A stretch of DNA of 64,000 nt. Origin: Sutcliffiella horikoshii. GTDB taxonomy: Bacteria > Bacillota > Bacilli > Bacillales > Bacillaceae_I. Shown one piece after another: positions 22,377 to 40,016 of this stretch. The notes beneath the pieces were generated by a model. That model ran no database searches and was not told where the DNA came from. It was given only the letters and a program-made list of their open reading frames with translations. Positions within the stretch are counted from its first letter, which is position 1. Each line of letters starts with the position of its first letter. Where the stretch lies: positions 3,782,001-3,846,000 of the forward strand of contig NZ_CP020880.1 in the NCBI RefSeq assembly GCF_002157855.1, given 5' to 3'. A program made the translations under genes and the position numbers.

Positions 22377-23168
22377 TTACTCTTTATTTGTAAAGTATTT
22401 GATAAGATAGCTTGCCCAAATATCCTGACCTTCTTGTTTAGAAATGGTAGGTGTATTTTCCTCTTCAGATGGCCATGTTTCCCAGTGATCTAGGTATACA
22501 TAATTATTTTCACTTGCAAAATTCTCTAATTCCTTTACTTGATCAAGATAATACTCATTATCTGCGATTGGGTTGGCCGGTTGCAGCATTATTGTAACGT
22601 TTGGTTTAATTATTTTTACCGTACTTAACAAAATATCTAAATGGTAAAGGGTGTCTTTCATGGTGGTATACCCTAAATCATTTAAAAGAAATGGCTCAAT
22701 TATTAGAATGTCTGGTTGAAGTGTGACAACCTTTTCATGGATATTTTCCTCGATTACTTGGCTAGAGTTTTTTGTTCCAACGTTTTCAATGTGATATTCA
22801 AACAGATCTGCATATGATGCATTTAGTTCTTCTACAAAACGTTTTGTCCACGAAGTCCCTTCCTCATGCTCTCCAATAGCCTGGGATCCAAGTATAACTA
22901 AAGTAAGCTTTTTCTCTTCTTCAAGAGCGTTTGAAATTTTCTGTGCTAACGGCTCTTGTAGATTAGCTGTTAGAGTAGATAGTTCCTTTGTATCCATTAG
23001 TTGAGGCTTACTAGTTTCCTTTTCTTCATCAACATTAGTATCTGTTTCAGCAATCTTTAACTTGGCTTGCTCACTAGTCGTTTCAATTTTCTTGTCATAT
23101 TGAAAAATACCAAAAGCAATTACCCCTATTGATAATACACAAATTATACTTATTACTAGTTTCCCCAT
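22377..23168 (-). CDS. Membrane-anchored SGNH/GDSL-like hydrolase
   Basis: The N-terminal membrane anchor (about 5-25) is followed by a charged linker and an SGNH-like domain (about 85-263). Visible blocks are VILGSQAIGEH (block I, with GSQ where most members have GDS), VGTKNSSQV, LQPANPI and LDHWETWP, which could supply the Asp/His pair. SGNH enzymes often add or remove O-acyl groups on surface polymers. It sits 21 nt after tagH, so it may modify or release the exported polymer. ATG 23168 has better spacing from GGGAG than ATG 23171. The unusual block I makes the catalytic claim moderate. Confidence 0.75.
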   Translation of the reverse strand: MGKLVISIICVLSIGVIAFGIFQYDKKIETTSEQAKLKIAETDTNVDEEKETSKPQLMDTKELSTLTANLQEPLAQKISNALEEEKKLTLVILGSQAIGEHEEGTSWTKRFVEELNASYADLFEYHIENVGTKNSSQVIEENIHEKVVTLQPDILIIEPFLLNDLGYTTMKDTLYHLDILLSTVKIIKPNVTIMLQPANPIADNEYYLDQVKELENFASENNYVYLDHWETWPSEEENTPTISKQEGQDIWASYLIKYFTNKE

Positions 23169-23189
23169 CATTGTACTCCCAATCTTTAC

Positions 23190-24791
23190 TTATTCGTTAT
23201 TTACAGTAATCATTAAAATCTTTTTCTCCAGATTAATGACTATATCATATCCATCAATAGGTATAAAAATCTGTTTTCCATCTTCAGAAACTACATGTGC
23301 ATTATTTTTAATGGCATCTAGCAGATCTTGGTCACTATAAATCTGAGAGATAATCAGTTGATGTCCAATACCATTTTCGTTAAAAGTGAAAGTGACATTA
23401 TCATATGAGTATTCTAAGAAAGCATATCCTTCGTTATTTACTCCTTCATTCGTTAAGCCGTTCAATTGATTTTTCACATTTTCAAAATCCATATTCAAGT
23501 GAGCTAAGAAGAATAGGTAGGAACTAGATAATCCTTCGGGAAGCAATGGATCAAATTCTAAAATAGTAAAGTTCGCAACAGGAGTGTCCTTCATGATCTC
23601 TACATTTTTTTGGTCGGTATAGTATACATTAGAATCGTAGTTTACTTTGTACACCTCTCCAATTTGTTCAAGTACCTGCACTTCACTTCCAAACGCTAGG
23701 TTAGTGACTTTATTTGTCAATTCAACATTATCGTAGAAATTAGAAACCTCTACTTTTACCCTCCCTTGTTTATCAACCTTCTCTGGAACAAGATCACTAT
23801 TATTAGGGACCTCTTCTTGAAGTTCTATCGGGATTACTTCCTTTTCTGAATTAAAAAATGCCAACGGTGATCGTTCAGTGTACATAAAGAAAGCACTAAC
23901 TACTGTGAAAAGGAATATTACGGAAAGCTGTAAAAAGGTACTTAAAAACATTTTATTTGTAGGAACTACATTTTCTGCGTAAGATCTTTGTTTAGCTACA
24001 TCTCCCTGCTTATCCAACATATCTTTTCTATATGCTTTCTTTTCCTCATTCGATAATGTATTTAGCCATTCAATAAACTCATTGTAGTTTTCCAATACTT
24101 TATTAGTTTCGCCAAACTCTTTAATTTCACCATAATGTAACCATAGCACTCTATCTGATATATACTTTGTTTGTTTCATGGAATGACTAATGAAAAAGAT
24201 AGTTTTGCCGGCTGCCTTAAATTCATTAATTTTCTTTATACATTTTTTATAAAAAACTCTATCACCAACGGAAAGGGCTTCGTCAATAATTAGAACATCA
24301 GGATTTGTAAATGTTGAAATGGCGAAACCTAATCTTGATTTCATCCCACTTGAATAGTTTTTTATTGGTTGGTCTATAAATTCACCAATATCAGCAAACT
24401 CAATGATTTGAGGGGTTATTTCTTCTATTTCTTTTTTATCTAATCCCATCATAATGCATTTAAGCTCTATGTTCTCAAGGCCTGTCAATTGCTTGTTTAA
24501 CCCCTCATTAATTGCAATGAGTGATGCTTCTCCTCTAATAGTTAGCTCTCCTGAAGTAGGAGGAATAATGCCAGCTAAAATATTCGATAGAGTGGACTTC
24601 CCAGACCCATTTATTCCAATGACTCCTATTGCCTCTCCTTCAAAAACTTCGAAGGATATATCGTTTAAAGCAGTAAAGGTACGCTCTTTACTCTTTTTCT
24701 TAAATGATAAAGCATCATATAATTTATCAGATTGTCTTTTATATAGTTGATAACTTTTAGATATGTTTTCAAATTTCACTTTTGGCTTCAT
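23190..24791 (-). CDS. tagH: TagH-like teichoic acid exporter ATP-binding subunit
   Basis: This is the ABC ATPase of a TagGH-type exporter, which moves a lipid-linked wall polymer across the membrane. Walker A is GINGSGKST (about 59-67), the signature region is YSSGM, and Walker B is DVLIIDEALS, followed by the H-loop FFISHSM. After the ATPase (about 1-240) come a membrane segment (about 285-305) and an extracellular C-terminal domain with an SH3-like stretch, as in B. subtilis TagH. The total of 533 residues matches that protein's size. The gene follows tagG by 19 nt. GGAGG lies 10 nt before the ATG. Confidence 0.93.
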   Translation of the reverse strand: MKPKVKFENISKSYQLYKRQSDKLYDALSFKKKSKERTFTALNDISFEVFEGEAIGVIGINGSGKSTLSNILAGIIPPTSGELTIRGEASLIAINEGLNKQLTGLENIELKCIMMGLDKKEIEEITPQIIEFADIGEFIDQPIKNYSSGMKSRLGFAISTFTNPDVLIIDEALSVGDRVFYKKCIKKINEFKAAGKTIFFISHSMKQTKYISDRVLWLHYGEIKEFGETNKVLENYNEFIEWLNTLSNEEKKAYRKDMLDKQGDVAKQRSYAENVVPTNKMFLSTFLQLSVIFLFTVVSAFFMYTERSPLAFFNSEKEVIPIELQEEVPNNSDLVPEKVDKQGRVKVEVSNFYDNVELTNKVTNLAFGSEVQVLEQIGEVYKVNYDSNVYYTDQKNVEIMKDTPVANFTILEFDPLLPEGLSSSYLFFLAHLNMDFENVKNQLNGLTNEGVNNEGYAFLEYSYDNVTFTFNENGIGHQLIISQIYSDQDLLDAIKNNAHVVSEDGKQIFIPIDGYDIVINLEKKILMITVNNE

Positions 24792-24810
24792 TTAAGTCAA
24801 GCCTCCATTA

Positions 24811-25614
24811 TTACAAATAATCCACAAACTTATTTCTAAATTTAATGTGTAAAAAAGCCCCAATAAATAAAACTAGTAGAACAAAGGACCAAAAATAAAT
24901 AGTTAATAGTAAATCCTCGTAAAACCATGTCCCATTTAATAGAGTATTTCTAAATCCCTCGATAATATAATAAAAAGGGTTTAACTTCAGTAGATTAATC
25001 AAAGAATTAGAAAGGCTACTCGCATCCCATAATATAGGCGTCAAGAAGAAAAACATCCTCATAAGGGAACTAATTGCAGTTTGAAAATCTCTTATCAAAA
25101 CTGAAATGGTAGAACTTAATAATGTGACGGAAAAGAGTAAAGCAATTAATGCAAAAAGGTAGTATGGCAACTGCAGAAAATAAATCCCTGGATAAATCTT
25201 ATTTAAAAGTAAAATTATTAATAAACCACAGAATAATAGTAAAAAATTGTTTGCATTTTTTATTATCGTAATTGTAGGTAATACACTAACTGGAAACTTC
25301 ATTTTAGCTACTAAACTGACCTTTTTATATATACTATTTGATCCTTGAGTTATAGAGGAACTTATAAAGAACCAAGGAACAATCCCTACCAATAACCAAA
25401 TAAAAAATGGTGTATCCCCTACAGGAGCTCCTCCCCTTATTCCAATACCAAATACAAACCAATAAGCAAGAATTTGTACGATCGGGTTAAGGAACTGCCA
25501 AATAGTACCTAAGTAATGCATTTGATATGCACTCTTAATATCGTATCCAGCCAACCGGAAAATTAGAGGGATATTTGATATTTGCTCTCTTACTATTTGT
25601 AAAACAAATTTCAT
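24811..25614 (-). CDS. tagG: TagG-like teichoic acid exporter permease
   Basis: The ABC-2 type permease has 267 residues and six predicted membrane helices. It has the typical start IPLIFRLAGYDIKSAYQMHYLG and the conserved core IWQFLNPIVQILAYWFVFG. It pairs with TagH to export a polyprenyl-linked polymer. It is the first gene of the tagG-tagH-SGNH unit, placed behind a terminator for the ligase genes and its own promoter. The start ATG follows AAAGGAAG. Nothing in the permease shows whether the substrate is teichoic acid or another polymer; the neighbouring genes favour an unusual polymer. Confidence 0.93.
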   Translation of the reverse strand: MKFVLQIVREQISNIPLIFRLAGYDIKSAYQMHYLGTIWQFLNPIVQILAYWFVFGIGIRGGAPVGDTPFFIWLLVGIVPWFFISSSITQGSNSIYKKVSLVAKMKFPVSVLPTITIIKNANNFLLLFCGLLIILLLNKIYPGIYFLQLPYYLFALIALLFSVTLLSSTISVLIRDFQTAISSLMRMFFFLTPILWDASSLSNSLINLLKLNPFYYIIEGFRNTLLNGTWFYEDLLLTIYFWSFVLLVLFIGAFLHIKFRNKFVDYL

Positions 25615-25684
25615 TATGTCAACTTCCTTTTTGTTTTGCTTAACGAGAAATATAAATGAGTTTTGAGTTGGACCCCAAAATAAT

Positions 25685-25713
25685 ATTATACGATATAATT
25701 ACTATAGATTGAA
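25685..25713 (-). promoter_or_regulatory. Promoter of the tagG-tagH-SGNH unit
   Basis: The minus strand has TTCAAT, a 17-nt spacer and a consensus TATAAT, about 70 nt before tagG. The -35 is weak. Confidence 0.5.
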
Positions 25714-25752
25714 CAAAAATAACATAATTTACAACATTATCCACAGCTAACT

Positions 25753-25783
25753 TAAAAAGTCCGTCAAGAAGCTCTCAACGGAC
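25753..25783 (-). terminator. Intrinsic terminator after the ligase genes
   Basis: The minus strand has stem GTCCGT/ACGGAC with a 13-nt loop, followed by TTTTTAAG. It closes the glycosyltransferase-ligase operon before tagG. Confidence 0.75.
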
Positions 25784-25790
25784 ACTATTC

Positions 25791-27215
25791 TTAAATAATA
25801 GTAAAACCAATTTTTATAGGCTTAGAATACGATTTTTCTGTAACATTCTTCACAGTGGCATCTTTTGGACTTGTTTTATCTAATGTCTTACGCATTTTTT
25901 CTAAGTTATCACTTGGCCCTGATACAACCACAAGTACATCCCCGTTTTTTAAGTTTTTCGCGTACCCATTTAACTTTAAACTAATAGCTTTTTTCATAAC
26001 CCATTTTCTATAACCTACATTTTGAACCTTACCTGATACCCGAATAGCTCTTACTTTATGTTTATACTTTGGTACGTTAGGGACTTTTATTTCTTTAAAT
26101 AACCCAGCTTCTATAGGCTGTATTATGCTATCAAAGTCAAAAAACAACTTAGTGTTTCTGATATTTACCATATTTTTGGTCTCAGGGAAGTAATAATCAA
26201 TAATATCTGAAGGCAAGTCTCTAGGCTCTCCCTCCGCCGGAAATGTATGAAGTGAAACTTCCGCCTTTGAGTTAATTTCTAGAACTACCCCATTGTTCGT
26301 TTCTTTATTTACCACCATGTCAACAGCACCTTGAACCAGTCCTGGAATGGCGTTTAGAGCACCAATAGCCATCTCTTTAATTTCAGGCGTAAGAGTGTTG
26401 GTAATATCTACAGGATCCCCTCCTGCAGAAACATTGCTTTTTTCGGCTAAGAAAATTCTTCGTCCCTCTTCTAGCACACTATTAAAATTAAGATTTAATG
26501 CTGTCAGTAGTTTTTTTGCCTCATTATTTAATCGTATTGGTTTATTAAACATATAAGGATTTTTATCTCTATTAATATTCTTTGCTTCTACTAATTCTTT
26601 AATAGTGCTTTTTCCATCTCCTATTACATTAGCCGGAATTCTGGTTACAGCCCCCAAAACTCTATCTTCAATAACATAGATTCGGAAGTCTTCCCCTTTT
26701 ACGAATTGTTCTAACATGACCGCAGGAAGTTTAAGATTCTTCCTTACATAAACTAGAGCTTCTCTCAGCTCTTGTTCGTTCTGGATGTTAGCAACAACTC
26801 CCTTTCCAGCAGATCCATCAGAAGGCTTAACCACCAAAGGGAAGCCGATTTTTTTTGCAACCTCTACGATTTGATCATCTGTTGCTGTTTCATCAAAATT
26901 ATCTCCAAGCGGCACTGATACTCCTGCATCTGACAAAAATTCCTTTGTCAAATTTTTATTAATACAAATCTTAACAGCACCTTTAGTCGTTAAGTCACCT
27001 CTAGTAGCGGAAAAATGATGAGTTTTTTTGCCATTACTTAAACTGTATCTTAAGTTCAGCTTCCCATTTATAAAGCTACTATAAAAAAACAGCTCTAGTC
27101 CTCTTCTCCATCCTTCAAGTGCTACTGTATAAGTGCAAATTTTATATCCGTAGGCTTCTTGTGGTATTGCGTTTGTTAAGTGTGGTAACCATTCTGTTGT
27201 GGTATTTACTGTCAT
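25791..27215 (-). CDS. ATP-grasp ligase fused to an intact acylphosphatase domain
   Basis: The N-terminal module (about 1-95) carries VALEGWRRGLE and THHFSATRGD, shared by all three paralogues here. An ATP-grasp domain follows (about 95-345) with FPLVVKPSDGSAGKGV for nucleotide binding and VDMVVNKETNNGVVLEIN for metal binding, similar to cyanophycin synthetase and peptide ligases. The C-terminal acylphosphatase domain (about 385-474) reads VSGKVQNVGYRKWV with the catalytic Arg, and AKNLKNGD with the catalytic Asn. ATP-grasp enzymes activate carboxylates as acyl phosphates and join them to amines, so a wall-polymer or peptide ligase is likely. Substrate unknown. It is the last gene of the operon; GGAGG precedes the ATG. 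Confidence 0.85.
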   Translation of the reverse strand: MTVNTTTEWLPHLTNAIPQEAYGYKICTYTVALEGWRRGLELFFYSSFINGKLNLRYSLSNGKKTHHFSATRGDLTTKGAVKICINKNLTKEFLSDAGVSVPLGDNFDETATDDQIVEVAKKIGFPLVVKPSDGSAGKGVVANIQNEQELREALVYVRKNLKLPAVMLEQFVKGEDFRIYVIEDRVLGAVTRIPANVIGDGKSTIKELVEAKNINRDKNPYMFNKPIRLNNEAKKLLTALNLNFNSVLEEGRRIFLAEKSNVSAGGDPVDITNTLTPEIKEMAIGALNAIPGLVQGAVDMVVNKETNNGVVLEINSKAEVSLHTFPAEGEPRDLPSDIIDYYFPETKNMVNIRNTKLFFDFDSIIQPIEAGLFKEIKVPNVPKYKHKVRAIRVSGKVQNVGYRKWVMKKAISLKLNGYAKNLKNGDVLVVVSGPSDNLEKMRKTLDKTSPKDATVKNVTEKSYSKPIKIGFTII

Positions 27216-27269: not shown

Positions 27270-28931
27270 TTACACGGTATATTCAGGAACTGCCCTTCTC
27301 TTTCCTTTAACCTTGGTTCCAATCTTTCTAATTATGCTTGTATATCTCCAAGACCTACTTTGTTGCAATTTAACTTTTTCATAGTCTAATTTTCTTTTCA
27401 CTTTTTTCAGCCTGTCCAATTCTTTCTCGATTGCTTTTAAATTGGTTTCTACTGATTTCAAGTTTCTAACATTAACTTCCTTACTAACATTAAAGCCAAT
27501 TTTCACAGCCAGGTTCCAGTCTTGTTCGATAACCTCTGTTATGTTGGCATGGTTTGTTTTATTACTTATAACATCTATAAATTCAGCTAATACTTTTTCA
27601 TTAGTACCAGATACAACTACTTCTATTTGGCCTTCGAATAAGTTATCAATATGGCCATACAACCCTCGGTTAATTGCTTCTCTTTTTATTTGTCTGTGGA
27701 AAGATAGGTTTGTAACATCCCCCATCAGAATTAATTTCTTCGAATAAAGTTCTCCTATAGGAGCTTTTGGCAACTCTACCTCAAGTGCAGATCTATTCTG
27801 TAATGGTTCCAGCACATTTGTTAAATCAAAGTACGCTTGAGACTTTGGTAAGTTTACAGTCTCAGGAAAATAATAATCAATAATAGCAGAAGGTATATCT
27901 CGAGCTTGTCCCTCTACAGGGAATAATATCCCACCAATTTGTGCCGTTGGATTAAGCTCAATAACTACAGCTGCTCTTTCGATTGGTTTGGTCTTATCCC
28001 AAATAATATCTACTCCACCATGGTAAAGTCCAGGTATTGCCTTCACAGAATCAATGGCGATTTGCTTTATTTCATCACGTAATTGATCCGTAGCATCAAT
28101 GGGATCTCCCCCAGCAGAAACATTTGTCTTTTCCTGTAGAAGTACAAATGTTCCCTTTGAAGGAATGCTCTTAAGTGTGTATCCAGACTTACTAAGGAAT
28201 TCCGTAGTCTCCTTGTCAATGGTAATTAAGCAATCATGTAAACGAGCGTTCTTTTTTCTCTGCCTATTCTTTAGACTTATTAACTCACGGATTGTGTGCA
28301 CACCATCTCCAACTACATTGGCAGGTATACGGTTGTAAGCCGCTACCACTTTGTCTTCAATGACATAAACTCTATATTCTTCCCCAGTTGCAAACCGTTC
28401 AAGTATAACATCTGGGTACCCTAGTTCTTCCCTTACATATTTAATGGCATTTTTTAATTCTTTAACATCTTTAATATTAGTAACTACACCATTTCCTAAA
28501 CTACCGTTTGTTGGCTTAAGTACTAGAGGAAAATCAATGGTATTAGAGAAATTAATAATCTCCTCATCGACTGACTCCTCCGTGAACCTTTTACCCATCG
28601 GTGTTGGTACCTTCGCTCTAGAAAGCCAAATCTTGGTTTCGTCCTTATCTGATCCAATCTCTACGGCTTGCTTAGTTACTTTATCACCTCTAGTTCGAAA
28701 GAAGTAATGCGTTCTATCTTTAGAACTAAGAGAAAATAACCTTCCAGGTGGATTTACCCCAAAAGTAATCATGTGATCAAATTTGTCAGAATCCTTTGTG
28801 TACCATTTAAGAGTTAGGCCTCTTCTCCAACCTTCAAGTGCTACGGAATAAGCACATAATTTTGTTTTTCTTGCACCTACGAGCACTTCTTTAGGTAAGT
28901 GAGGCAGACTTATTACTTCATTCTGATTCAA
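27270..28931 (-). CDS. ATP-grasp ligase with degenerate acylphosphatase domain and coiled-coil tail
   Basis: Architecture: N-terminal VALEGWRRGLT module; ATP-grasp with FPLVLKPTNGSLGNGV, DVILERFATGEEYRVYV and AAVVIELNPTAQIGG; an acylphosphatase-like domain in which GDVTNLSFHRQ replaces the catalytic Arg position by His while the later Asn is kept (HIDNLFEG). A coiled coil (about 490-530) and a basic tail with SRSWRYTSIIRK end it. I prefer TTG 28931, with GGAGG 8 nt upstream, over ATG 28946, which has only a weak site; the ATG would sit 2 nt after the upstream stop. Tight coupling to its neighbours marks it as part of one operon. Confidence 0.83.
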   Translation of the reverse strand: MNQNEVISLPHLPKEVLVGARKTKLCAYSVALEGWRRGLTLKWYTKDSDKFDHMITFGVNPPGRLFSLSSKDRTHYFFRTRGDKVTKQAVEIGSDKDETKIWLSRAKVPTPMGKRFTEESVDEEIINFSNTIDFPLVLKPTNGSLGNGVVTNIKDVKELKNAIKYVREELGYPDVILERFATGEEYRVYVIEDKVVAAYNRIPANVVGDGVHTIRELISLKNRQRKKNARLHDCLITIDKETTEFLSKSGYTLKSIPSKGTFVLLQEKTNVSAGGDPIDATDQLRDEIKQIAIDSVKAIPGLYHGGVDIIWDKTKPIERAAVVIELNPTAQIGGILFPVEGQARDIPSAIIDYYFPETVNLPKSQAYFDLTNVLEPLQNRSALEVELPKAPIGELYSKKLILMGDVTNLSFHRQIKREAINRGLYGHIDNLFEGQIEVVVSGTNEKVLAEFIDVISNKTNHANITEVIEQDWNLAVKIGFNVSKEVNVRNLKSVETNLKAIEKELDRLKKVKRKLDYEKVKLQQSRSWRYTSIIRKIGTKVKGKRRAVPEYTV

Positions 28932-28948
28932 CTTTACAACCTCCATAG

Positions 28949-30574
28949 TTAATTCTTCTTTTTAAAATAATTTTTTATAGGTAAAGTTACCTTCCTTACC
29001 GGTTGAGTCAGCTTCCACGAAGAACTATTCTTCGTGTTTCTAATTTCCTTTTTTGCTAACCTGATTTCTTTTTCTAACTGTTCTTTCTCAGATATTAACC
29101 TTTGAAGGTCTTCAAGTCCTGTTTTCAGATCGGCTCTTATTTCAAAACCTACTTTAACGGGTTTATTCCAGTCAATTTCTTCAATTTCCAAAACTTCAGC
29201 TCTTTCGGTGTCTTCATAGAAAGCTTCTTTAAATTGTTCAACTTCCTCTTTGCTTGTACCACTTATAACGACCTCAATATCTCCATTATCTAAATTACTT
29301 AGGTAACCTACGAGTCCTCTCTCAAAAGCTTGCTTCCTTAAGCCACGATGAAATCCTTTGTTTTGAACAGAGCCTGAAACTGTATATTTTTTCGAGTAAA
29401 TAGTCCCTACCGGTGCCATTTTTACAGTTGTAACTAGAGCATTTCTATTAAATAGAGGTTCAAGAGCATCTGAAAAATCATAATAGATTTTCTGACGGTC
29501 AGTTTGTAATCCTTTTGTTTCTGGAAAATAAAAATCAATAATATATTTTGGGATATCTGTCGCTTTTCCTACTAATGGAAATAGCAAAGAGCCGATTTGA
29601 GGAGTAGGATTTATTTCAATAACATGTACTCCTGCTTCATTAACAATGATATCTATTGCTCCATGTGGAAGTCCCGGAATGGCTCGTATTGCTTTAATAC
29701 ATATTTCCTTAATATCAGTAGACAGAGAACTTAATGCTTCTTCAGAATCTCCTCCTAAAGAGATGTTACTCTTATCTGTTAAGTAGACTTCTACTCCCGA
29801 CTCTGGAACTGATTCGTATGTGTATTTGTTTGCGAGAATATACTCAACCATTTCAGCATTTGGCTTAATCATGCAACTAACCAATCTAGGGTTATCTTCT
29901 CGCTTCTGATTCTTCATTTCAATTAATTGTTTTATAGAATGCTTTCCATCCCCGATTACATTGGCTGGTATTCTTTTAATCGCTCCTACCACTTTTCCAT
30001 CACAAACAAATACTCTATAATCCTGACCCACAATATGTTTTTCAATAACAATATTAGTTGCACTATGAGTAGTTCTTACTTTTTTTATCGCTGCTTTTAA
30101 TTCTCCAGTGGATTTAATATTTGTATAAACACCTTTACCGAAGCTTCCGTCAGATGGTTTGATTACTACTGGAAATCCTAGTGAAGAAGCGTGTCTAACA
30201 ATTTCTTCATCCGTATTCTCTGATTTAAACCCTTTTCCTGGAGCTATAGGTATACCCGCTTCTTCTAACCATCTCTTAGTTACAGCTTTATCAGTGCAAA
30301 TATCTACCGCTGAGTTAGCAATCTTATCCCCTCTAGTTTTAAAGAAATAATGTACTCTAACTCCATTACTCAGTGAAAATAATTTACCTGGTTTATCTGT
30401 AAACCAGGTTTTCATCCCTGAGAAATCCTCCGAATCTTTCGTATACCATTTTAGTTCTAGGCCTCGTCTCCAACCTTCCAACGCAAGTGCATATGCATCA
30501 AGTTCGGGGCCACGTGCGTCAGCTACTATTTCGGTTGTTAAGTGTGGTAATTGCCCCTCATAATTGTCTTCCAT
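28949..30574 (-). CDS. ATP-grasp ligase with degenerate acylphosphatase domain and coiled-coil tail
   Basis: This is the third paralogue in the tandem array, with 541 residues. The N-terminus has ALALEGWRRGLE and HYFFKTRGD. The ATP-grasp core has FPVVIKPSDGSFGKGV, NIVIEKHIVGQDYRVFV and GVHVIEINPTPQIGS. The acylphosphatase-like domain reads GSVQNKGFHRGL, with His where the catalytic Arg belongs, and SNLDNGD. A coiled coil and the tail motif SSSWKLTQPVRK end it. AGGAGG stands 7 nt before the ATG. The substrate is unknown; the family logic is carboxylate-amine ligation driven by ATP. Confidence 0.85.
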   Translation of the reverse strand: MEDNYEGQLPHLTTEIVADARGPELDAYALALEGWRRGLELKWYTKDSEDFSGMKTWFTDKPGKLFSLSNGVRVHYFFKTRGDKIANSAVDICTDKAVTKRWLEEAGIPIAPGKGFKSENTDEEIVRHASSLGFPVVIKPSDGSFGKGVYTNIKSTGELKAAIKKVRTTHSATNIVIEKHIVGQDYRVFVCDGKVVGAIKRIPANVIGDGKHSIKQLIEMKNQKREDNPRLVSCMIKPNAEMVEYILANKYTYESVPESGVEVYLTDKSNISLGGDSEEALSSLSTDIKEICIKAIRAIPGLPHGAIDIIVNEAGVHVIEINPTPQIGSLLFPLVGKATDIPKYIIDFYFPETKGLQTDRQKIYYDFSDALEPLFNRNALVTTVKMAPVGTIYSKKYTVSGSVQNKGFHRGLRKQAFERGLVGYLSNLDNGDIEVVISGTSKEEVEQFKEAFYEDTERAEVLEIEEIDWNKPVKVGFEIRADLKTGLEDLQRLISEKEQLEKEIRLAKKEIRNTKNSSSWKLTQPVRKVTLPIKNYFKKKN

Positions 30575-30594
30575 TTCAAATCCTCCTAGATTGC

Positions 30595-32091: not shown

Positions 32092-32106
32092 AAAGGACAT
32101 CACCTA

Positions 32107-34785
32107 TTATAGTAATTTTAGTACATGATTTGATAGCCTGGAGATATGTTGACTGTGTCCAAAGTTTCTCTCTACAAACTCATGGGCAATCTTAACCTGT
32201 TTTTCATATAGTTGACTATCATTCATTAACTCGTTAATTCTTTCTTTAACTTCATGTACTTCTGCATATATGGCTGCATTACTAAAAAGAGTTTGATATT
32301 TAGGGTGTATAATTACTGGTACGCCAACTGCCATAGCTTCAAAAATTACCCTTCCAAAAGCTTCTACCCAATCCGGATGTGTATAATATACAAAAACATC
32401 CAAGTCTTTAAGAAACTCTTTTGGCTCCATTTCACCGAACTCGTACACTTTCCAGTTATCAGGCAGCTTTCCTAGAAGCTTTCTTGGACTCTCTGCCCCC
32501 CCTAGAATATGGACCTCGTATTCGGGGGTTGGAGGATATAGCTCAAGTAGCTCACTTTTCGTATTTGGCCATTTTACGTATTGGGACCGAGAATGACGAC
32601 CTATTTTTATCACAGAATCTTGAACTTGAGGTGTTCGCAAATCCCTTTTCCATTCATTAACATCAATTATGTTAACCCAGTCATCAGTAGAGAGTTTTAT
32701 ATGTTTTAAATCATTGGAATGATAGCGATTTAAGGTATCTCTTACTTGCGGCCCTATTGGATACCATTTTCCTTTACTACCAGTGTAATCATATAGGTTC
32801 TTTACACATTTTTTTATCTCGTATAATGTTACACCTTGTTTGCTATAATCTCGTTTAGGAGGTTGATTTATTATTACTTTCACTGACTTGGCATCAATAT
32901 TTGGCAAATACCTCTGCCATTCTTGTAAAACAGGGGGATGCCTAACAATAAGTAAATCGCAAGATACACTTTCACCATAAACAATTAACTGAACTTGTTC
33001 TCCATCTATCAGATTCCTGACATGGTAATTCATCTCTCTTTGAGATTCAAAATCAAACCTCGACAGCTGAATTAAACCTGTTGTAAGACCTGCAGCATTT
33101 TGGGCTTTAATTTCTTCTATATTTGACATGTTGGTGCCACCTTGCAACCGAAATTCAGAAGCGATAATGACATCAAAATGCTTTCTTTTATATGCATTTT
33201 CCCGTTTAGGAAGCATAGTATCTGGTACAGCAAACGGGCGTTGTTTCAACTCAGCTGAATAATATAAGTAGTCTCTATTATGTTCATGAAAAGCGCTGTA
33301 TGCTTCATGGTATGCTTTTCTGGCTCCCATAAAATACCCATGATAGCCGAATTCTTTATTGCCTGTTAAAGAAGAGTTGGATTGACGCTGAAAAGAAAGA
33401 GGACCTGTTGCTAAATCTACTACTGCCTCTGCTCCAAAGACCAATATTAACCTCTTTTTAAATTCTCCATCTGCTCCAAAACGAACAGAATCCCAAGAAC
33501 CCAACAACTTTATTACTTTTTCCCGTCTAAACATAAGTGATGAAAGGTTGGAGAAAATAAAGCCTCCTGGTTTTCCTCTTCTAAAGAAACTTAGTTGATC
33601 TGTGGCTCTTGCTTGTTGTGAAGTGTTTGCAATTACGTCATCGTTTTCCATCATGTGTCTAACTTGAGTTTCAATTTTTTGCGGATGAGACCAATCATCT
33701 ACATCATTAACCGTAACAAACTCTCCAGTTGCTACCGTTAGTGCACGGTTTCTAGCAACATAAGCTCCACTATTTGAATCGAGTGTAATTAATTTCACTC
33801 TATTATCGAGAGCCATGTACTCTTCTATAATTAATCTAGAAGTGTCCTTGCTAGAATCATCTACAACAATTAACTCTAGGTTCTTCCAAGTTTGACCTAA
33901 TATTGATTTAAGCGAAGTTTGTAAATACTCTGCTCCGTTGTATACGGGCATTATAATGGAGACCTTTGGTAACTGTTTATTAGTTTCGATTTCTACATTA
34001 TTTACACTTGAAGACAATCCATCATAAGGGACTAAATAGTTATCTTTAGTCAGATTAATGTCACTTAGATTATGATAATTAAATGCTTTATTAATCCACT
34101 TGATTTTCTCCGAAATAACTGTTTCCAAATTTGCAGCAGCCAAATACAGGTCTGGGTGGGTTTCTCTTGTCATTGCATTATGAATGATCTGTTTGCCCTT
34201 AGTACTTTCCCCCAACAAATGTATAGATTCAGCTTCTAATATAGCAATTCTTCGGAGCTTATCTTTAGATTTTTCTCCATTTTTAACAACCGAAAGATAA
34301 TGTACAGTGTACTTAGCATCGTCTACAGTTTGCTTATTGGCATACCAAAGAGCAAGTTCCCAAGCTGCTGAACGAACCAAATATCTATCCTCTGAAAATT
34401 TCACATAATGTTGCAATTCTTTTAATACGGCATGAGTAAAGCCTAACTCATATAGTTTATACCTTAATTTCTTCACTCTTTTTTCTACTCTGTTAATCTT
34501 CCAAGTCTGATTAAAAAGTTGTTTCCAGTGACGTTTACCAGTAATGTATAGTTTAAAAGAAGAGGCAACTTTTCTTTGTCTATATATGAATTTAATTATT
34601 CCAAGAATCTTGCCTTCCTTAATTTTCATATACTGTTGGTTCAGTCGATAATATTCATTATACCTTTCTTGGTTTAACACTTTTAAATCTTGTACTTCTT
34701 GGTCTAATTTCTTTATTTCAAGTTCAAGCTTTAGGTTGCGAGTCTGCATTTTTTTTAGTAGTATCTGTTCATTGCTCTCTTCCAT
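32107..34785 (-). CDS. Bifunctional GT2-GT4 glycosyltransferase with N-terminal coiled coil
   Basis: The protein has 892 residues. A coiled coil (about 1-60) and a helical repeat region (about 90-255) precede a GT2 domain starting PKVSIIMPVYNGAEYLQTS, with the metal/nucleotide Asp motifs VVDDSSKD and NDVDDW. The C-terminal half (about 510-890) is a GT4-like transferase ending in EAFGRVIFEAMAVGVPVII. It may add two successive sugars to a growing polymer. ATG 34785 is chosen because TGGAGA lies 9-10 nt before it; this gives a 17-nt overlap with the upstream gene. The frame is open to 34887, but that would overlap much more. It is a tandem paralogue of the upstream gene. Confidence 0.88.
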   Translation of the reverse strand: MEESNEQILLKKMQTRNLKLELEIKKLDQEVQDLKVLNQERYNEYYRLNQQYMKIKEGKILGIIKFIYRQRKVASSFKLYITGKRHWKQLFNQTWKINRVEKRVKKLRYKLYELGFTHAVLKELQHYVKFSEDRYLVRSAAWELALWYANKQTVDDAKYTVHYLSVVKNGEKSKDKLRRIAILEAESIHLLGESTKGKQIIHNAMTRETHPDLYLAAANLETVISEKIKWINKAFNYHNLSDINLTKDNYLVPYDGLSSSVNNVEIETNKQLPKVSIIMPVYNGAEYLQTSLKSILGQTWKNLELIVVDDSSKDTSRLIIEEYMALDNRVKLITLDSNSGAYVARNRALTVATGEFVTVNDVDDWSHPQKIETQVRHMMENDDVIANTSQQARATDQLSFFRRGKPGGFIFSNLSSLMFRREKVIKLLGSWDSVRFGADGEFKKRLILVFGAEAVVDLATGPLSFQRQSNSSLTGNKEFGYHGYFMGARKAYHEAYSAFHEHNRDYLYYSAELKQRPFAVPDTMLPKRENAYKRKHFDVIIASEFRLQGGTNMSNIEEIKAQNAAGLTTGLIQLSRFDFESQREMNYHVRNLIDGEQVQLIVYGESVSCDLLIVRHPPVLQEWQRYLPNIDAKSVKVIINQPPKRDYSKQGVTLYEIKKCVKNLYDYTGSKGKWYPIGPQVRDTLNRYHSNDLKHIKLSTDDWVNIIDVNEWKRDLRTPQVQDSVIKIGRHSRSQYVKWPNTKSELLELYPPTPEYEVHILGGAESPRKLLGKLPDNWKVYEFGEMEPKEFLKDLDVFVYYTHPDWVEAFGRVIFEAMAVGVPVIIHPKYQTLFSNAAIYAEVHEVKERINELMNDSQLYEKQVKIAHEFVERNFGHSQHISRLSNHVLKLL

Positions 34786-37258
34786 GAAGAAATTTCTCCA
34801 ATCTTGAAGCGTGTGTAGAATATCCAAAATGTTTTTCCAAGTAATCCAATCCTTTTTCCACCTGGTCATCATATAATTCACGGTCATTCATTAGAAGGTG
34901 TATTTTATCTTTCACCTCTTCAGGTTCTGCATATATTGCAGCTTCTTGAAAAAGTTCCTCATAAAAGGGTGGAATAATTACTGGTACGCCTGTTGCCATA
35001 GCTTCAAAAATAACTCTTCCAAATGCCTCCACCCAATCTTTATGTGTATAATAAACAAACACATCTAGTTCTTTTAAGAAAGCTTGGGGAGTAATCTCTC
35101 CAAATTCATATACCGTCCAATTTGGAGGTATTTCACCTAATATTTTTTTAGGCGACTTTGCACCACCAAGTATTTTAACATCAAAGTCGTTAGAATAAAC
35201 CTGTAATATTCCTTGACTAGACTCTGGCCATTTAACATACTGATCACGAGAATGGCGTCCAATCCGAATTCTGTTTGCATGCTGTGGCCGCTTCTCTCTT
35301 TTCCACTTTATAACATCTATAATATTTGACCAATCTATGGGCATTAGTTTAATATTTACTAACTCTTCTTTATGAAACTCATCCAATACCTCTCTTACTT
35401 TTGGTCCAATCGGATACCAATAAGCATTTTTGCCGAAATATTCATATAAGTTAGTTGCGCAAGTTTCAAAGTCGTACAGGGTTACACCAGAATCCCCATA
35501 ATCCCTTTTTGGAGGTTGATTAATAATTACATGTATACTATCTGCTTTAACGTTTGGTATATAACGTTGAAATTCTTGTAAGACAGGGGGATGTCTTATA
35601 ATGAGAACATCACAACTAACTTCTTCTCCGTAGACAATCATTTGGACAGTTTCTCCATCTATTAACTCCCGGATCTTTAAGTTAGTTGCTCCAACCGTAT
35701 TTATATCAAATCGATTCATTTGAATGAGACCGGTTTTTAACCCTATCTTTTTTTGTGCTTTTATTTCCTCCGCATTAGACATGTTAGTGCCACCTAATAA
35801 TCGGAATTCTGAGGCGATAATAACATCAAAATGCTTTGTATTTTTCATTCTATCTGGCTTCATGGGTTCAGGTACTGGAAACAAACGTTTTTTAAGTGGG
35901 AAATCATAGAATAAGTTATTACCATTCATTTCATGATAGTAATCATGTGCCTCAGCATATTCTTTCCGCGCTCCCATAAAAAAGCCAGGGAATCCAAAAG
36001 CAGAATGACCTGTCAGGGAAGTTTCTGATTGCCGTTGGAAAGATAAAGGGCCAGTTTTTAAAGATACAATTGACTTCTCACCAAATACCTTCTTAATTCT
36101 TTTAACATATTCAGAATCCCCTCCGAACCTTACGGAATCCCAATAGCCTATTTTGGAGAATACAGTCTCTTTTCTAAACATAAAAGAAGACATGTTAGGA
36201 AAAGCGTATATCCCAGGCTTACCTCTTCTATAAAAAGTTAGATTGTTTGTAGTTCTCGCCTGCTGAGAAAAATTACCCACTATATCTGAGTGTTTAAGAA
36301 GATGGACAACCTGGGTTTCAATTTTTTGAGGATGAGACCAATCGTCTGCATCATTAATAGTAATAAATTCACCAGTCGCTTGTTTTAAAGCTAGATTTCT
36401 TGAGGCATATGCCCCTCCATTTGTAGGAGCCTTTATTAGACTAATCCTTGCATCAAGCCTCGCATACTCTTCAACTATTCTCACTGTAGCATCACTAGAA
36501 CAATCATCAACTACCAATATTTCAATATTACTCCACGTTTGATTTCGCAAAGAATTAATGGAAGTTTCAATTAGATCTTCTGCATTATATGCAGGTACAA
36601 TAACTGTCACTTTCGGCCCGGATGATAGTGATGTTTGTTTAGAATCACTACTTAATTGATCATATAATGGTGAAGCATTCTGCTTAAGTTTAACCTGTGA
36701 ATAGTCATATAAATCGAATGCTTTGTTAATCCAAACTAACTTCTTTGAAGAGGAGGTTTCAATACTTGCTAATGCTAAATACAAGTCTTCGTGCTTTTGC
36801 TTTTTTAAGACATTAGTTAAAACCTCTCTGGCGGCTTCTAGTTCACCTAGAAGTCTGTAACTTTCCGCAGAAAGTATTGCAGCTCTTCTAATTAAATCTT
36901 TATCTTTCTCTTTTTTTATTGCTATTTCTAGATATTGCAAACATAACAATGCGCTTTCTTTAGTATATTGATTTGCATACCATGTAGCTATTTCCCAAGA
37001 TGCTAATTTGCGCTTGAAAATATCTTCTGCATTTGCACATATATATTTTAGTTCTTCGAGTGCTTTTTCTGTAAAACCCAAACTATTAAGTTTATGTTTT
37101 AATCTTTCAATTTCTCTTAATGATTTTCTTTTCTGTCCTGGAGAAATAGCATTTTTAATGGAGCTTTTTTGCTTATTTGTTAGTAAGTTGGATAAGTGTT
37201 TTTTTTTGCTTTCACTTAAGAATGTATATAGGAACCAATCGATAACATTGACCGACAT
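34769..37258 (-). CDS. Bifunctional GT2-GT4 glycosyltransferase
   Basis: This paralogue of the downstream gene has a helical repeat N-terminus, a GT2 domain starting PKVTVIVPAYNAEDLIETS with VVDDCSSD and NDADDW, and a GT4-like C-terminus with WVEAFGRVIFEAMATGVPVII. Unlike its partner it lacks the long N-terminal coiled coil. The start is unclear: GTG 37303 and ATG 37258 are both in frame and neither has a normal ribosome binding site, although a GGCGGTGGTC stretch lies between them. It is the first gene of the long operon and follows a leader hairpin terminator, so expression may be controlled by antitermination. Confidence 0.86.
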   Translation of the reverse strand: MSVNVIDWFLYTFLSESKKKHLSNLLTNKQKSSIKNAISPGQKRKSLREIERLKHKLNSLGFTEKALEELKYICANAEDIFKRKLASWEIATWYANQYTKESALLCLQYLEIAIKKEKDKDLIRRAAILSAESYRLLGELEAAREVLTNVLKKQKHEDLYLALASIETSSSKKLVWINKAFDLYDYSQVKLKQNASPLYDQLSSDSKQTSLSSGPKVTVIVPAYNAEDLIETSINSLRNQTWSNIEILVVDDCSSDATVRIVEEYARLDARISLIKAPTNGGAYASRNLALKQATGEFITINDADDWSHPQKIETQVVHLLKHSDIVGNFSQQARTTNNLTFYRRGKPGIYAFPNMSSFMFRKETVFSKIGYWDSVRFGGDSEYVKRIKKVFGEKSIVSLKTGPLSFQRQSETSLTGHSAFGFPGFFMGARKEYAEAHDYYHEMNGNNLFYDFPLKKRLFPVPEPMKPDRMKNTKHFDVIIASEFRLLGGTNMSNAEEIKAQKKIGLKTGLIQMNRFDINTVGATNLKIRELIDGETVQMIVYGEEVSCDVLIIRHPPVLQEFQRYIPNVKADSIHVIINQPPKRDYGDSGVTLYDFETCATNLYEYFGKNAYWYPIGPKVREVLDEFHKEELVNIKLMPIDWSNIIDVIKWKREKRPQHANRIRIGRHSRDQYVKWPESSQGILQVYSNDFDVKILGGAKSPKKILGEIPPNWTVYEFGEITPQAFLKELDVFVYYTHKDWVEAFGRVIFEAMATGVPVIIPPFYEELFQEAAIYAEPEEVKDKIHLLMNDRELYDDQVEKGLDYLEKHFGYSTHASRLEKFLHGREQ

Positions 37259-37312
37259 TTTTTTAAAACCGAAAATTGAGACCACCGCCAGATTTTTTAT
37301 CACTTAAACAGA

Positions 37313-37338
37313 ACAAAAAGCTACATTTTAGTAGCTTT
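37313..37338 (-). terminator. Leader terminator upstream of the glycosyltransferase-ligase operon
   Basis: The minus strand has AAAGCTAC, loop TAAAAT, then GTAGCTTTTTG. It lies between the predicted promoter and the first gene, only about 10 nt before the earliest start codon. It therefore cannot belong to an upstream gene's end and is a candidate attenuator. Confidence 0.7.
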
Positions 37339-37363
37339 ATGGTAAAAAGAATCTATACGTATA

Positions 37364-37392
37364 ATAACACAAAAAAATACAGATTTAGACAA
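37364..37392 (-). promoter_or_regulatory. Promoter of the glycosyltransferase-ligase operon
   Basis: TTGTCT, a 17-nt spacer and TGTTAT lie on the minus strand. The predicted transcript starts near 37357, about 20 nt before the leader terminator. Confidence 0.4.
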
Positions 37393-37406
37393 CATCTATA
37401 AAATTC

Positions 37407-37460
37407 AAACACCCATTTTGTGTATTAGAAACCACATTATTGTAACTTGGGTGTTTTTTG
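37407..37460 (-). terminator. Possible terminator after the GT4 pair
   Basis: Arms AACACCCA and TGGGTGTT are separated by about 38 nt that contain a second short TGTG/CACA pairing. The T run on the minus strand is weak (TTTGAATTTT). Confidence 0.35.
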
Positions 37461-37468
37461 GAAGTTTG

Positions 37469-38674
37469 TTAATGAGATTTTTGCTTAATTAATGCCATTT
37501 TACTTCTTTTGAAGCGATACGAAAGCTCAGGGAAGACGTTTCGCTCTAATATTTCTCCATACCACTCCTGTAGTTTTGAAGCTTCATTATCCCAATTTAA
37601 ATGCTTTTTAACAGCTTGTTGGCCATTAATGCCCATTCTTTCAGCTTCTTCAGGATTATTTTTCAGGTATTCTATTGCCTCTTTAATTTGGTTGTTATCA
37701 AGAGGGTTTACTGCTATTCCACAATTATATTTTTCCACAAGCTCTTTCCAAGCCGGAAAATCAGAACAAATAATAGGAAGGCCCGCACTCATATATTCAA
37801 AGAATTTCGTTAGTTCCTTTTTCATATAGTGCTCTGTTGGTGGGAATAAAGCTAGCCCTGCCAACCATTCTCCATTTTGATATTGGAGATCAATTTCATC
37901 CTTAGGTACATACCTTCCCTTTCCTTCAATGAAGAGTCTGTCTTTTTTGTTTCCGGCTATTTCATTCATTTCCCTTGCTAAACTGTTCGGGCATTTACCA
38001 AAGAAGTGAACCGAGATTTTTTCATCCAAAGAAGGTAATTGCGCATGTATAGCGGCACCCCTATCTTGAGATATATTTCCTGTATAAATCAATTTAGCAG
38101 TTGAATTGTTGTTTCTTTTTAACTTATATTCAGTTTTTATTGTGTTTTCTTCTATTATAGGATAGTTAAGAACACATTCACCATTTGGATACTTTTCTTT
38201 ATAATATTTCTCTGCTAGACATAATTCTAAGTTGAAAGAGAGTACTTTTTCAGCAAATTTAAAACCCTTAGACATTAATAGTCTAATTGGCTTCTTTAGA
38301 TATTCCTTTTGCATAATACTAGTTTCATAGTCTTCATGTATATCGTAGACTACAACGTTCCCCTTTTTCTTCAACAACCACGCAACCAAAAGCAATTCAG
38401 GATCATGGATATGGTAAATATCAGCATTTAGACTGCGGGCTTGTTTTAATGCTTCTAAAGTTGATAAAACTACTCGCTTAATACGCGATTTTCTCTTTTT
38501 AATCGATAAGATATTAATAGGGCTTTCAACCTGTACATCCTCTTCCTCTGGTACAATAAGAGTGACATCAAACCCCGCTTTGTGTAGAGACAGACATTCC
38601 TTATAATAAATCCTTGGATCTAATGGATGATGCACAGTTGTAATATGAACTACCTTTTTATCTTTAAAATCCAT
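37469..38674 (-). CDS. GT4-family glycosyltransferase
   Basis: The protein has 401 residues with the GT-B fold. The N-terminal Rossmann domain has VVHITTVHHPLDPRIYYKE and DIYHIHDPELL. The C-terminal nucleotide-sugar domain has KLIYTGNISQDRGAAIH and the E-x7-E region with FFEYMSAGLPIICSDFPAWKE. It transfers a sugar from a nucleotide donor to a lipid-linked or polymer acceptor on the cytoplasmic side. It lies 17 nt after the preceding GT4 gene, so the two are co-transcribed. A ribosome binding site close to ATG 38674 is poorly spaced (GAGGAG 15 nt upstream). Confidence 0.88.
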   Translation of the reverse strand: MDFKDKKVVHITTVHHPLDPRIYYKECLSLHKAGFDVTLIVPEEEDVQVESPINILSIKKRKSRIKRVVLSTLEALKQARSLNADIYHIHDPELLLVAWLLKKKGNVVVYDIHEDYETSIMQKEYLKKPIRLLMSKGFKFAEKVLSFNLELCLAEKYYKEKYPNGECVLNYPIIEENTIKTEYKLKRNNNSTAKLIYTGNISQDRGAAIHAQLPSLDEKISVHFFGKCPNSLAREMNEIAGNKKDRLFIEGKGRYVPKDEIDLQYQNGEWLAGLALFPPTEHYMKKELTKFFEYMSAGLPIICSDFPAWKELVEKYNCGIAVNPLDNNQIKEAIEYLKNNPEEAERMGINGQQAVKKHLNWDNEASKLQEWYGEILERNVFPELSYRFKRSKMALIKQKSH

Positions 38675-38691
38675 ACCCCTTTTTACACTCC

Positions 38692-39816
38692 TCAGTGATT
38701 ATCCCTTTTATGATAACTTATTACATCACAAAATACTTCTTCGTATTTTTTTACGATAATTTCCGCATTAAATTCTTTTGCCCTTGTATAACCTTGATCA
38801 ACCATTTTTTTATAAGACTTAGGTGCAAGTGTAAGAACTCTTAGCATCTCCCTTGCTAAGCTCTCTTCGTCTGCAACTTCACAAAGCACTCCGTATTTCC
38901 CTTTATCCAACACTTCTTCTGGCCCAGACAAGCAATTAGTTGAAACAACCGGAAGTCCTGTGGCCAAGGCCTCAGCAATCACGTGACTGAACCCCTCATG
39001 GATGGAAGATAAAACAAAAAGGTCGGATTCTCTCATATATGTATAAGGATTTTTTTGAAACCCAACAAAATGAACATTACCGTGAACCCCTAACTCTTTT
39101 GCGTATTCTATCAATTCATTTTTGAGAGGTCCTTCTCCAAGGATAACCAACCTACAATTCAAGTCTTTTACTACTATGGAAAAAGCTTTAAGTAATGTTT
39201 TGTGATCCTTTTGGGGAACTAATCTACCCGCGGTCATAATAGTTTTACAATCTCCTTTTGTGAAAATATACCTATGCATAGGACATATTTCCGCCTCTGT
39301 GAGTTTATTTTTAATCACAGCTAGGTCTATAGGGTTATATATTACTTTAATTCTATCCGCTTTTACTTTATATCGATTAATTAAATTAACTTTCACGCCT
39401 TCAGAAAGAGATATTATTTGAGATGATAATTTATAAATAGCACCAAATGCCAATAGCCTTAAATTCTCAGTAAAACTACCTCCAAGATTATCAGCTTCTC
39501 TTATTACATTTTTTGCTTTGGAAAACGATAGTAAGTTTGCAATAATCGCAATTGTATTAACTCTCGGGATGGTACTGAAAACAATATCTATTTCTTCGGT
39601 TCTAATTAACTTTGATAGACTGAATATAGATCTACTTAACCTTTTTGTATTTAATTTTATTACCTTCACATCTGACTTTAATTCTGTTTCATAAGAACCT
39701 TCATAATTTAAAGTCACCAGTACAGGGCTGAACCTTTCCCGATCCAGATTATTGATAATATTAAGGAGCGTACGTGCTGCTCCACCTGCACCCATTTGAT
39801 ATATAAAAAATAACAC
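38692..39816 (-). CDS. GT4-family glycosyltransferase
   Basis: GT-B fold transferase with N-terminal LLFFIYQMGAGGAARTLLN and C-terminal AGRLVPQKDHKTLLKAF and SSIHEGFSHVIAEALATGLPVV. These are typical of GT4 enzymes that build capsular or wall polysaccharide. The listed GTG 39816 has no clear ribosome binding site. A start five codons upstream at a CTG (39831) would give the usual LKKIRVLFFIYQ start and sits 7 nt after AAAGGTAG, so a rare CTG initiation is possible. It is the first gene of the two-gene GT4 unit. Confidence 0.86.
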   Translation of the reverse strand: MLFFIYQMGAGGAARTLLNIINNLDRERFSPVLVTLNYEGSYETELKSDVKVIKLNTKRLSRSIFSLSKLIRTEEIDIVFSTIPRVNTIAIIANLLSFSKAKNVIREADNLGGSFTENLRLLAFGAIYKLSSQIISLSEGVKVNLINRYKVKADRIKVIYNPIDLAVIKNKLTEAEICPMHRYIFTKGDCKTIMTAGRLVPQKDHKTLLKAFSIVVKDLNCRLVILGEGPLKNELIEYAKELGVHGNVHFVGFQKNPYTYMRESDLFVLSSIHEGFSHVIAEALATGLPVVSTNCLSGPEEVLDKGKYGVLCEVADEESLAREMLRVLTLAPKSYKKMVDQGYTRAKEFNAEIIVKKYEEVFCDVISYHKRDNH

Positions 39817-40016
39817 TCTTATTTTCTTCAGTTTTATTCTACCTTTCTTAAAAGCAATTTACTCTACAAATGTTGAAAAATATCAAAATTACACTTATTA
39901 TGCCGTTTTTATAATAACAAAAATACTTTCATTAATAAACACTAATTTCATATTTTTTACAATAAATTTTCAATCCGCTTACAGAGTAATAGGGTGTGTA
40001 TTACTTTATAAAAATA

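Follow-up and report, generated by a model that had tools for sequence, protein, structure and literature searches.

A conserved array of ATP-grasp ligases beside TupA in Sutcliffiella horikoshii, a candidate locus for a peptide-bearing wall polymer

The genome of Sutcliffiella horikoshii (assembly GCF_002157855.1, contig NZ_CP020880.1) carries a cluster of glycosyltransferase, ATP-grasp ligase and exporter genes which, in our estimate, probably serves to build and export a wall polymer of the teichuronopeptide type, in which uronic acids bear peptides, with three tandem ligases filling the glutamate-adding role or a close variant of it. The cluster occupies positions 22377-39816 of the window, i.e., of the whole stretch of 64,000 nucleotides that was analyzed (positions 3,782,001 to 3,846,000 of the contig). 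Its gene content, the conserved gene order, the co-occurrence of the same genes in other genomes, the near-invariant ATP-grasp residues and the lost phosphatase residues of the ligases are observed directly. The locus may hold the missing enzymes behind alkaline-protective teichuronopeptide; it would also add a class of peptide-extending ATP-grasp enzymes with a repurposed acylphosphatase fold, and represent a route to polyamides other than PgsBCA.

The link to teichuronopeptide

Teichuronopeptide consists of polyglucuronate and poly-γ-L-glutamate, needs TupA for its synthesis, and serves as a standard illustration of how alkaliphiles maintain an acidic cell surface. Passages of a 2013 review describe the enzyme for the glutamate part as unidentified, suggest ATP-grasp synthetases for this role, and report that B. 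halodurans lacks PgsB (PMC3815933). According to the relevant part of a 2004 review, OB2920 of Oceanobacillus iheyensis was then the sole other TupA homologue, and the teichuronopeptide genes of this species had been found by comparison with strain C-125, OB2920 being the only one named there (PMC8153356). In our data, TupA is present in 10 of 28 genomes of Oceanobacillus, a genus also represented among the loci described below (L012, Oceanobacillus profundus). A genome which we take to be O. iheyensis HTE831 (G309) has a single gene of the TupA family PF14305, located in the array tagH-gtA-gtA-tupA-lig1-lig2-CapA-lig3(reversed)-lig2-YheCD, whose CapA-like protein matches PGA_cap with 241.6 bits. 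Since this is its only PF14305 gene, the second TupA gene of the literature is apparently part of the same kind of array.

The first-pass annotation of the window had placed the ligases outside any teichuronopeptide pathway known to it and suspected a possibly new polymer. The first claim is not supported as it was put, given the gap described in the 2013 review (PMC3815933) together with the array of the presumed O. iheyensis genome; and because TupA stands there directly before the same ligases, they are better explained as a missing portion of teichuronopeptide synthesis, or a close variant of it, than by an unrelated new polymer. The S. horikoshii locus shares with the teichuronopeptide system of Halalkalibacterium (Bacillus) halodurans C-125 a TupA-type ATP-grasp protein, the haloalkaliphile setting and the absence of PgsB; it differs in that the passages of the literature available on that system name tupA (OB2920) and no ligases, GT2-GT4 polymerases or TagGH. 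The window TupA is, with 502 amino acids (aa), a TupA-type (PF14305) protein of the long form, to which the TupA of C-125, presumably 489 aa in length, would also belong.

Gene content of the locus

All genes of the cluster lie on the minus strand, as confirmed by checking coordinates and frames, and are transcribed in the following order:

38692..39816, minus strand: gt4a, GT4 glycosyltransferase, PglJ-like, first in the run (NCBIfam ProtGlycPglJ 174.5 bits, cut-off 500)
37469..38674, minus strand: gt4b, GT4 glycosyltransferase (Glycos_transf_1 39.4 bits)
34769..37303, minus strand: gtA, double enzyme of a GT2 (inverting) and a GT4 (retaining) glycosyltransferase, candidate backbone polymerase (PF00535 119.2 bits, C-terminal PF00534 31.4 bits)
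32107..34887, minus strand: gtB, second GT2-GT4 double enzyme (PF00535 115.8 bits, C-terminal PF00534 38.3 bits)
30595..32103, minus strand: tupA, long-form TupA-like ATP-grasp protein, 502 aa, with N-terminal coiled coil (PF14305 218.5 bits, cut-off 25)
28949..30574, minus strand: lig1, CphA/GshF-like ATP-grasp ligase with acylphosphatase-fold domain and a coiled coil ending in SSSWKLTQPVR
27270..28946, minus strand: lig2, ligase built like lig1 (Pfam/NCBIfam)
25791..27215, minus strand: lig3, third ligase, without C-terminal coiled coil (Pfam/NCBIfam)
24811..25614, minus strand: tagG, ABC-2 permease of the exporter (PF01061, ABC2_membrane, 55.7 bits)
23190..24791, minus strand: tagH, exporter ATPase with C-terminal extension (PRK13546 317.5 bits; PRK13545 377 bits)
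22377..23171, minus strand: SGNH-like protein with N-terminal membrane anchor, end of the run (read from the sequence; no Pfam family above cut-off)

Pfam and NCBIfam bore out the gene content given in the first-pass annotation, i.e., four glycosyltransferases (two of them GT2-GT4 doubles), a TupA-like ATP-grasp protein, three ligases and TagGH; the cluster was said to end at 39831, and its last gene actually stops at 39816. For the C-terminal PF00534 matches of gtA and gtB the cut-off is 26.4 bits. The listed open reading frame of gtB overlaps gtA by 119 bp, so that the true start of gtB is probably internal. The G+C content of the locus is 34.5%, vs. approximately 38% in its flanks.

Conservation of the gene set

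The query for a scan of named genomes was an alignment built from lig1, lig2 and lig3 only, so that TupA and the other genes had no part in choosing the loci. The scan, limited to the best 80 of 150 relatives (all locus counts refer to that part), yielded 67 named loci, 44 of them with a long TupA (profile A3, >400 bits). In 42 of these 44 loci a ligase gene follows tupA within 400 bp on the same strand, and 42 likewise encode at least one gtA/gtB-like transferase of at least 550 aa. TagG or TagH is found in 40; in the other four (L028, L033, L056, L071) the stretch starts inside the locus, at the transferase or at tupA. Relatives of gt4b occur in 26/44 loci within the limited stretches covered. 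The most common order is gt4b, a small GT2, tagG, tagH, gtA, gtB, tupA, lig1, lig2 and further ligases, from which the window locus departs by having tagGH after the ligases. The number of ligases per TupA locus, in the stretches covered, is one (1 locus), two (3), three (18), four (12), five (7) or six (3). The co-occurrence with TupA, TagGH and glycosyltransferases for which the first-pass annotation had proposed to search is thus present.

Among the 23 loci without a long TupA, L039 and L048 are the second halves of contigs already counted, and L040, L052 and L057 lie at a contig edge or on short contigs. The rest comprises three loci of Bacillota with ligases and without TupA in the stretch covered (L043, L046, L047), which are discussed below, and 15 distant loci (L060-L070, L072-L075); among the latter, L060 and L062 contain weak TupA-like genes (122 and 168 bits, respectively). 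Distant ligase relatives outside the Bacillota belong to Vreelandella (L060) and to actinobacteria (L061, L063, L064, L067), and some distant relatives adjoin weak TupA-like, ATPgrasp_ST-like or racemase-like genes. Bacillota carriers of the locus include Evansella, Oceanobacillus, Virgibacillus, Salinicoccus, Alkalicoccus, Salipaludibacillus and Lentibacillus, and the genera of nearly all named Bacillota loci are halophilic or alkaliphilic. In many halophiles and alkaliphiles among the named genomes, the locus offers specific and conserved candidates, so that the question of the glutamate enzyme becomes directly testable.

As an unselected control, 299 genomes of the order to which S. horikoshii belongs were searched. 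The ligase profile matched 36 of them at E 1e-60; 21 match over the ATP-grasp part alone (approximately 208-249 bits, frames of approximately 750-890 aa), as would be expected for cyanophycin synthetases and GshF, and 15 encode full-length ligases (>450 bits). TupA was found at E 1e-40 in 14 genomes, every one among the 15 with full-length ligases. The family PF14305 as such is more common (47/397 genomes) and occurs in a short form of approximately 270-340 aa and a long form of at least 400 aa. Within the order sample, the long form is accompanied by full-length ligases in 14/14 genomes, and the short form alone is found with a ligase in one of 21 (G087). This genome and that of L043 are apparently the same, which leaves a single exception instead of two. 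Chance clustering of the genes is excluded by the co-occurrence of long TupA and ligases. Among 11 listed genomes of the genus, full-length ligases are present in that of the window only; the locus is therefore patchy and may have been acquired. No title describing this gene set was found among open-licence papers, few of which were looked at beyond the title.

The ligases

Each ligase combines a RimK-type ATP-grasp domain (49.6, 46.2 and 42.8 bits for lig1, lig2 and lig3; cut-off 21) with an acylphosphatase domain (61.0, 41.8 and 74.8 bits; cut-off 22.5). The three are paralogues, lig2 and lig3 being 45% and 40% identical to lig1, and a search of the genome found no further full-length copy. 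All three match the cyanophycin synthetase model TIGR02068 with 200-216 bits in the ATP-grasp part alone (profile positions approximately 181-476 of 862; cut-off 850), and CphA-type models overall give 189-225 bits, at cut-offs of 850-877. In the predicted structure of lig1 (mean predicted local distance difference test score, pLDDT, 88.1), Foldseek finds cyanophycin synthetases and GshF as best matches, with E-values down to 5.9e-25 and a query TM-score of approximately 0.5; among solved structures, too, CphA and GshF are nearest to the ligases. Enzymes of the CphA/GshF type lengthen a peptide at its carboxyl end via an acyl phosphate. The window ligases share with the ATP-grasp domain of CphA, CphA2 and GshF its build and likely the direction of extension, which is generally from N to C. 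In contrast to CphA, the window ligases do not have the two-half architecture of ATP-grasp and Mur-ligase-like parts; instead of the Mur-ligase half, they carry the acylphosphatase-fold domain and, in many cases, a coiled coil at the C-terminus. Tailoring of ribosomal peptides was rejected as a function, since the best matches are CphA and GshF and not graspetide ligases; no dedicated search for a precursor peptide was made.

Conserved residues were compared in 191 ligases, namely 188 from the 67 named loci (>250 bits, >430 aa) and the three of the window, a few being counted twice where L039 overlaps L032 and L048 overlaps L058. Two Lys, an Arg, an Asp and one Glu of the ATP-grasp domain are present in 191/191, an Asn in 190 and another Glu in 189; presumably, these bind nucleotide, metal and phosphate. 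The Arg/Asn pair of the acylphosphatase domain, which we take to be catalytic, is kept in 36/191. The Arg is replaced by His in lig1 and lig2, and lig3 retains both Arg403 and Asn421. The first ligase after tupA (n = 44) has His at this position in 30 loci and Arg in five, the His mostly within a (Y/F)HRGLRK context. A working phosphatase in every ligase is rejected in view of this loss of presumed catalytic residues; the domain appears to be mostly non-catalytic, its known chemistry largely gone and its fold retained, which argues for a role in binding or docking. The acylphosphatase-like domains reported at first pass are present (Pfam), and phosphatase chemistry is not implied for lig1 and lig2. 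In open-licence papers, no literature on ATP-grasp joined with acylphosphatase was found.

A Trp-containing motif, approximately SxSW(K/R)xTxPxR and defined after inspection of the window's ligases, was seen in the window (27270-30574) and among loci L009-L059 and L071. It lies 10-39 residues from the C-terminus in 106/191 ligases and, nearer the N-terminus, in 9/44 TupA proteins. It occurs in 0/71 gtA/gtB-like enzymes and in 1/266 other open reading frames of at least 200 aa. The motif may hold ligases and TupA together as a docking tag. That the ligases produce an independent peptide, or a polyamide for storage, and only happen to stand in one operon with a teichuronic-acid-like exporter seems very improbable to us. 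Their nearest relatives, the cyanophycin synthetases, do make a storage polymer, but the ligases lack the Mur-ligase half and are tightly linked to tupA, glycosyltransferases and TagGH; moreover, the motif common to ligases and some TupA proteins suggests one complex.

TupA, glycosyltransferases and exporter

The predicted structure of TupA is weaker (pLDDT 77.7) and has a Ddl/RimK-like ATP-grasp core (AlphaFold); no solved structure matching profile A3 was found. In Campylobacter jejuni, the TupA-like ATP-grasp domain of Cj1438C amidates glucuronic acid of the capsule at its C6 carboxylate, and thus shares fold and target group with the step proposed for TupA. Cj1438C differs in being fused to a GT2, in making a simple amide and in that the part of the source available mentions no ligase array (PMC11800379). 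By analogy with such glucuronamides, TupA and the ligases might decorate a capsule polymer, or one resembling teichoic acid, with single amino acids or amines and without any peptide chain. This is improbable in our view, as the three or more extension-type ligases in 40/44 TupA loci exceed the need, although two loci with one ligase each and TagG/H, and no TupA in the stretch (L043 and L046, the latter also with a TagF-like CDP-glycerol glycerophosphotransferase), would be in line with it.

The closest solved relatives of the GT2 half of gtA are heparosan synthase B and chondroitin synthase, enzymes which handle glucuronic acid. One inverting and one retaining transferase per polypeptide would suit the proposed uronic-acid backbone. 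TagH reaches 317.5 bits with PRK13546 in the locus search and 319.6 bits in the genome scan (cut-off 320), and 377 bits with PRK13545 (cut-off 538); by score gap, it is the sole TagH-type ATPase of the genome, the next best scoring 92.8 bits. Models for ordinary teichuronic acid synthesis (TuaA-H) were considered as well and rejected, the matches at the locus being partial and far under cut-off: TuaG reaches approximately 100 bits in the GT2 part alone (cut-off 400) and TuaC less than 30 bits (cut-off 550).

Amino-acid-related neighbors in related loci

CapA-like (PGA_cap) genes are present in 21/44 TupA loci, 19 of them checked by Pfam. In four loci, a fusion protein encoded next to the ligases unites the CapA-like domain with a second TupA-like ATP-grasp domain (L022:12162-14315, L041:15437-17635, L049:12650-14854, L112:4176-6398). 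Classical CapA has a hydrophobic N-terminal segment, and the seven CapA-like proteins inspected have none. The resemblance to PgsBCA/CapBCA lies in these PGA_cap proteins; the difference, besides the missing hydrophobic N-terminus, is that ligation at the window locus would be of the ATP-grasp and not the Mur type. PgsBCA polyglutamate synthase was rejected as the route, since PgsB is absent from the window's genome (TIGR04012 best 24.2 bits, cut-off 222.7). The same model gave matches in 6/14 control genomes, B. subtilis among them, one being above the cut-off. In L050 (14963-17740), a PGA_cap domain is fused to a GDSL/SGNH hydrolase; together with the SGNH-like gene that ends the window cluster, this suggests that the pathway may include an esterase step.

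Asp/Glu racemase genes lie between or beside the ligases in 5/44 TupA loci (L010, L012, L019, L026, L036) and also in L114. A comparable pairing is known from lactic acid bacteria, where the ATP-grasp D-Asp ligase AslA occurs with the Asp racemase RacD; AslA differs in being, as far as the available part of the source tells, a single ligase that acts on the peptidoglycan stem peptide (PMC4155827). ATP-grasp proteins of the YheCD type are found by best match in 18/44 TupA loci (L013, L014, L016, L019, L094 and others), and ATPgrasp_ST-like genes in 6/44. In Bacillus, YheC/D ATP-grasps are spore-associated. The amino-acid substitution proposed in the first-pass annotation is supported by the racemases (5/44) and the CapA-like genes (21/44).

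Precursor supply and wall attachment

The flanks of the cluster encode Cps4B and, in addition, two proteins that could be related to supply of the precursor and attachment of the product:

42408..43724, minus strand: TviB-like nucleotide-sugar dehydrogenase, possible uronic-acid precursor supply, its membership in the pathway uncertain (PRK15182 515.8 bits, cut-off 592)
44024..44950, plus strand: LCP-family TagU glycopolymer-peptidoglycan transferase, candidate for wall attachment (PRK09379 461.6 bits, cut-off 441)

The genome encodes three nucleotide-sugar dehydrogenases over the family cut-off, one of which is a TuaD-like UDP-glucose dehydrogenase (661.6 bits, cut-off 700). Among related loci, L113 has a TuaD-like dehydrogenase approximately 4 kb from the ligases, and L023 a TviB-like gene (450 bits) after them.

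Proposed pathway and alternatives

From these observations we infer the substrates, the order of steps, the product and its location in the wall as follows. The GT2-GT4 doubles would polymerize a uronic-acid backbone, the GT2 half forming beta and the GT4 half alpha linkages. TupA would use ATP to activate the C6 carboxylate of a uronic acid and link this group to the initial amino acid through the amine of the latter, whereupon lig1, lig2 and lig3 could lengthen the chain at its free carboxylate by acyl-phosphate chemistry of the CphA/GshF type. The amino acids added would be acidic, most likely glutamate, and in loci with a racemase sometimes D-Glu or D-Asp. TagGH would export the product, and the LCP enzyme would fix the polymer to peptidoglycan. 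The acylphosphatase domains of the lig1/lig2 type are presumably non-catalytic binding or docking modules, and those of the lig3 type, with both residues, may hydrolyze stalled acyl phosphates.

A different use of the ligases, which we hold to be possible but rather unlikely, is that each adds one different amino acid, which would result in a defined mixed oligopeptide on a uronic-acid polymer, distinct from teichuronopeptide. The ligases fall into separate clades in a largely conserved order (lig1 and lig2 after tupA in many loci, then other types), there are between one and six of them in a tupA locus, and YheCD-like, ATPgrasp_ST-like and racemase genes are added in 18/44, 6/44 and 5/44 loci. 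However, the CapA-like genes point to glutamate chains, and the clades could equally be initiator and elongator ligases for a single amino acid. With similar reserve, we consider a carrier-free, non-ribosomal assembly line, working directly on the wall sugar polymer, in which TupA starts the chain on uronic-acid carboxylates and the ligase clades, each specific for one amino acid, follow in the order of their genes. If this were true, the number and type of ligase genes would spell a strain-specific surface peptide of haloalkaliphiles, and the acylphosphatase-fold domains would have turned into substrate-recognition modules.

Several points weigh against a polymer of the teichuronopeptide kind as the product. 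The varying number of ligases per locus, often accompanied by YheCD-type ATP-grasps, fits an ordered mixed peptide equally well. The tie to C-125, in which TupA was defined, runs via the inferred O. iheyensis genome. A possible Halalkalibacterium genome of unconfirmed identity (G170) has only a short PF14305 gene, which would count against the link if it is H. halodurans, and no ligases were found in the other genome stretches examined alongside it. The window locus has neither a CapA-like gene nor a racemase, the rest of the genome not having been searched for CapA, and the MurI-like racemases of L010 and L114 could have a housekeeping function. The named Bacillota loci L043, L046 and L047 have ligases and no TupA in the stretch, and are no contig fragments. 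With respect to the precursor, the TuaD-like dehydrogenase lies approximately 10 kb outside the window, and since the dehydrogenase within it is TviB-like, the uronic acid might be derived from N-acetylglucosamine. Finally, the remark of the 2004 review on O. iheyensis implies that part of the finding may have been noticed before.

Further observations

The stretch of L047 (1-18425, Lacicoccus alkaliphilus) contains seven ligase-type and three ATPgrasp_ST-like genes, and neither TupA nor TagGH, with approximately 6 kb upstream covered. Next to the S. horikoshii cluster, at 2658-21227 of the window, several secreted proteins carry CW_binding_2 repeats (amidase, subtilase, NlpC/P60), and three more, as read from their sequence, combine a lytic-transglycosylase-like domain with repeats of a similar kind at the C-terminal end. 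The gene at 21399-22328 (plus strand) encodes a protein that looks secreted and contains a long PEPKPEP repeat; the open Gly-Ser repeat frame antisense to it (21386-21904, minus strand) is most likely a repeat artefact. At 50666-53485 (plus strand), a SNF2-type helicase (SCO1167-family model 661.5 bits, cut-off 1200) follows a gene of 521 aa.

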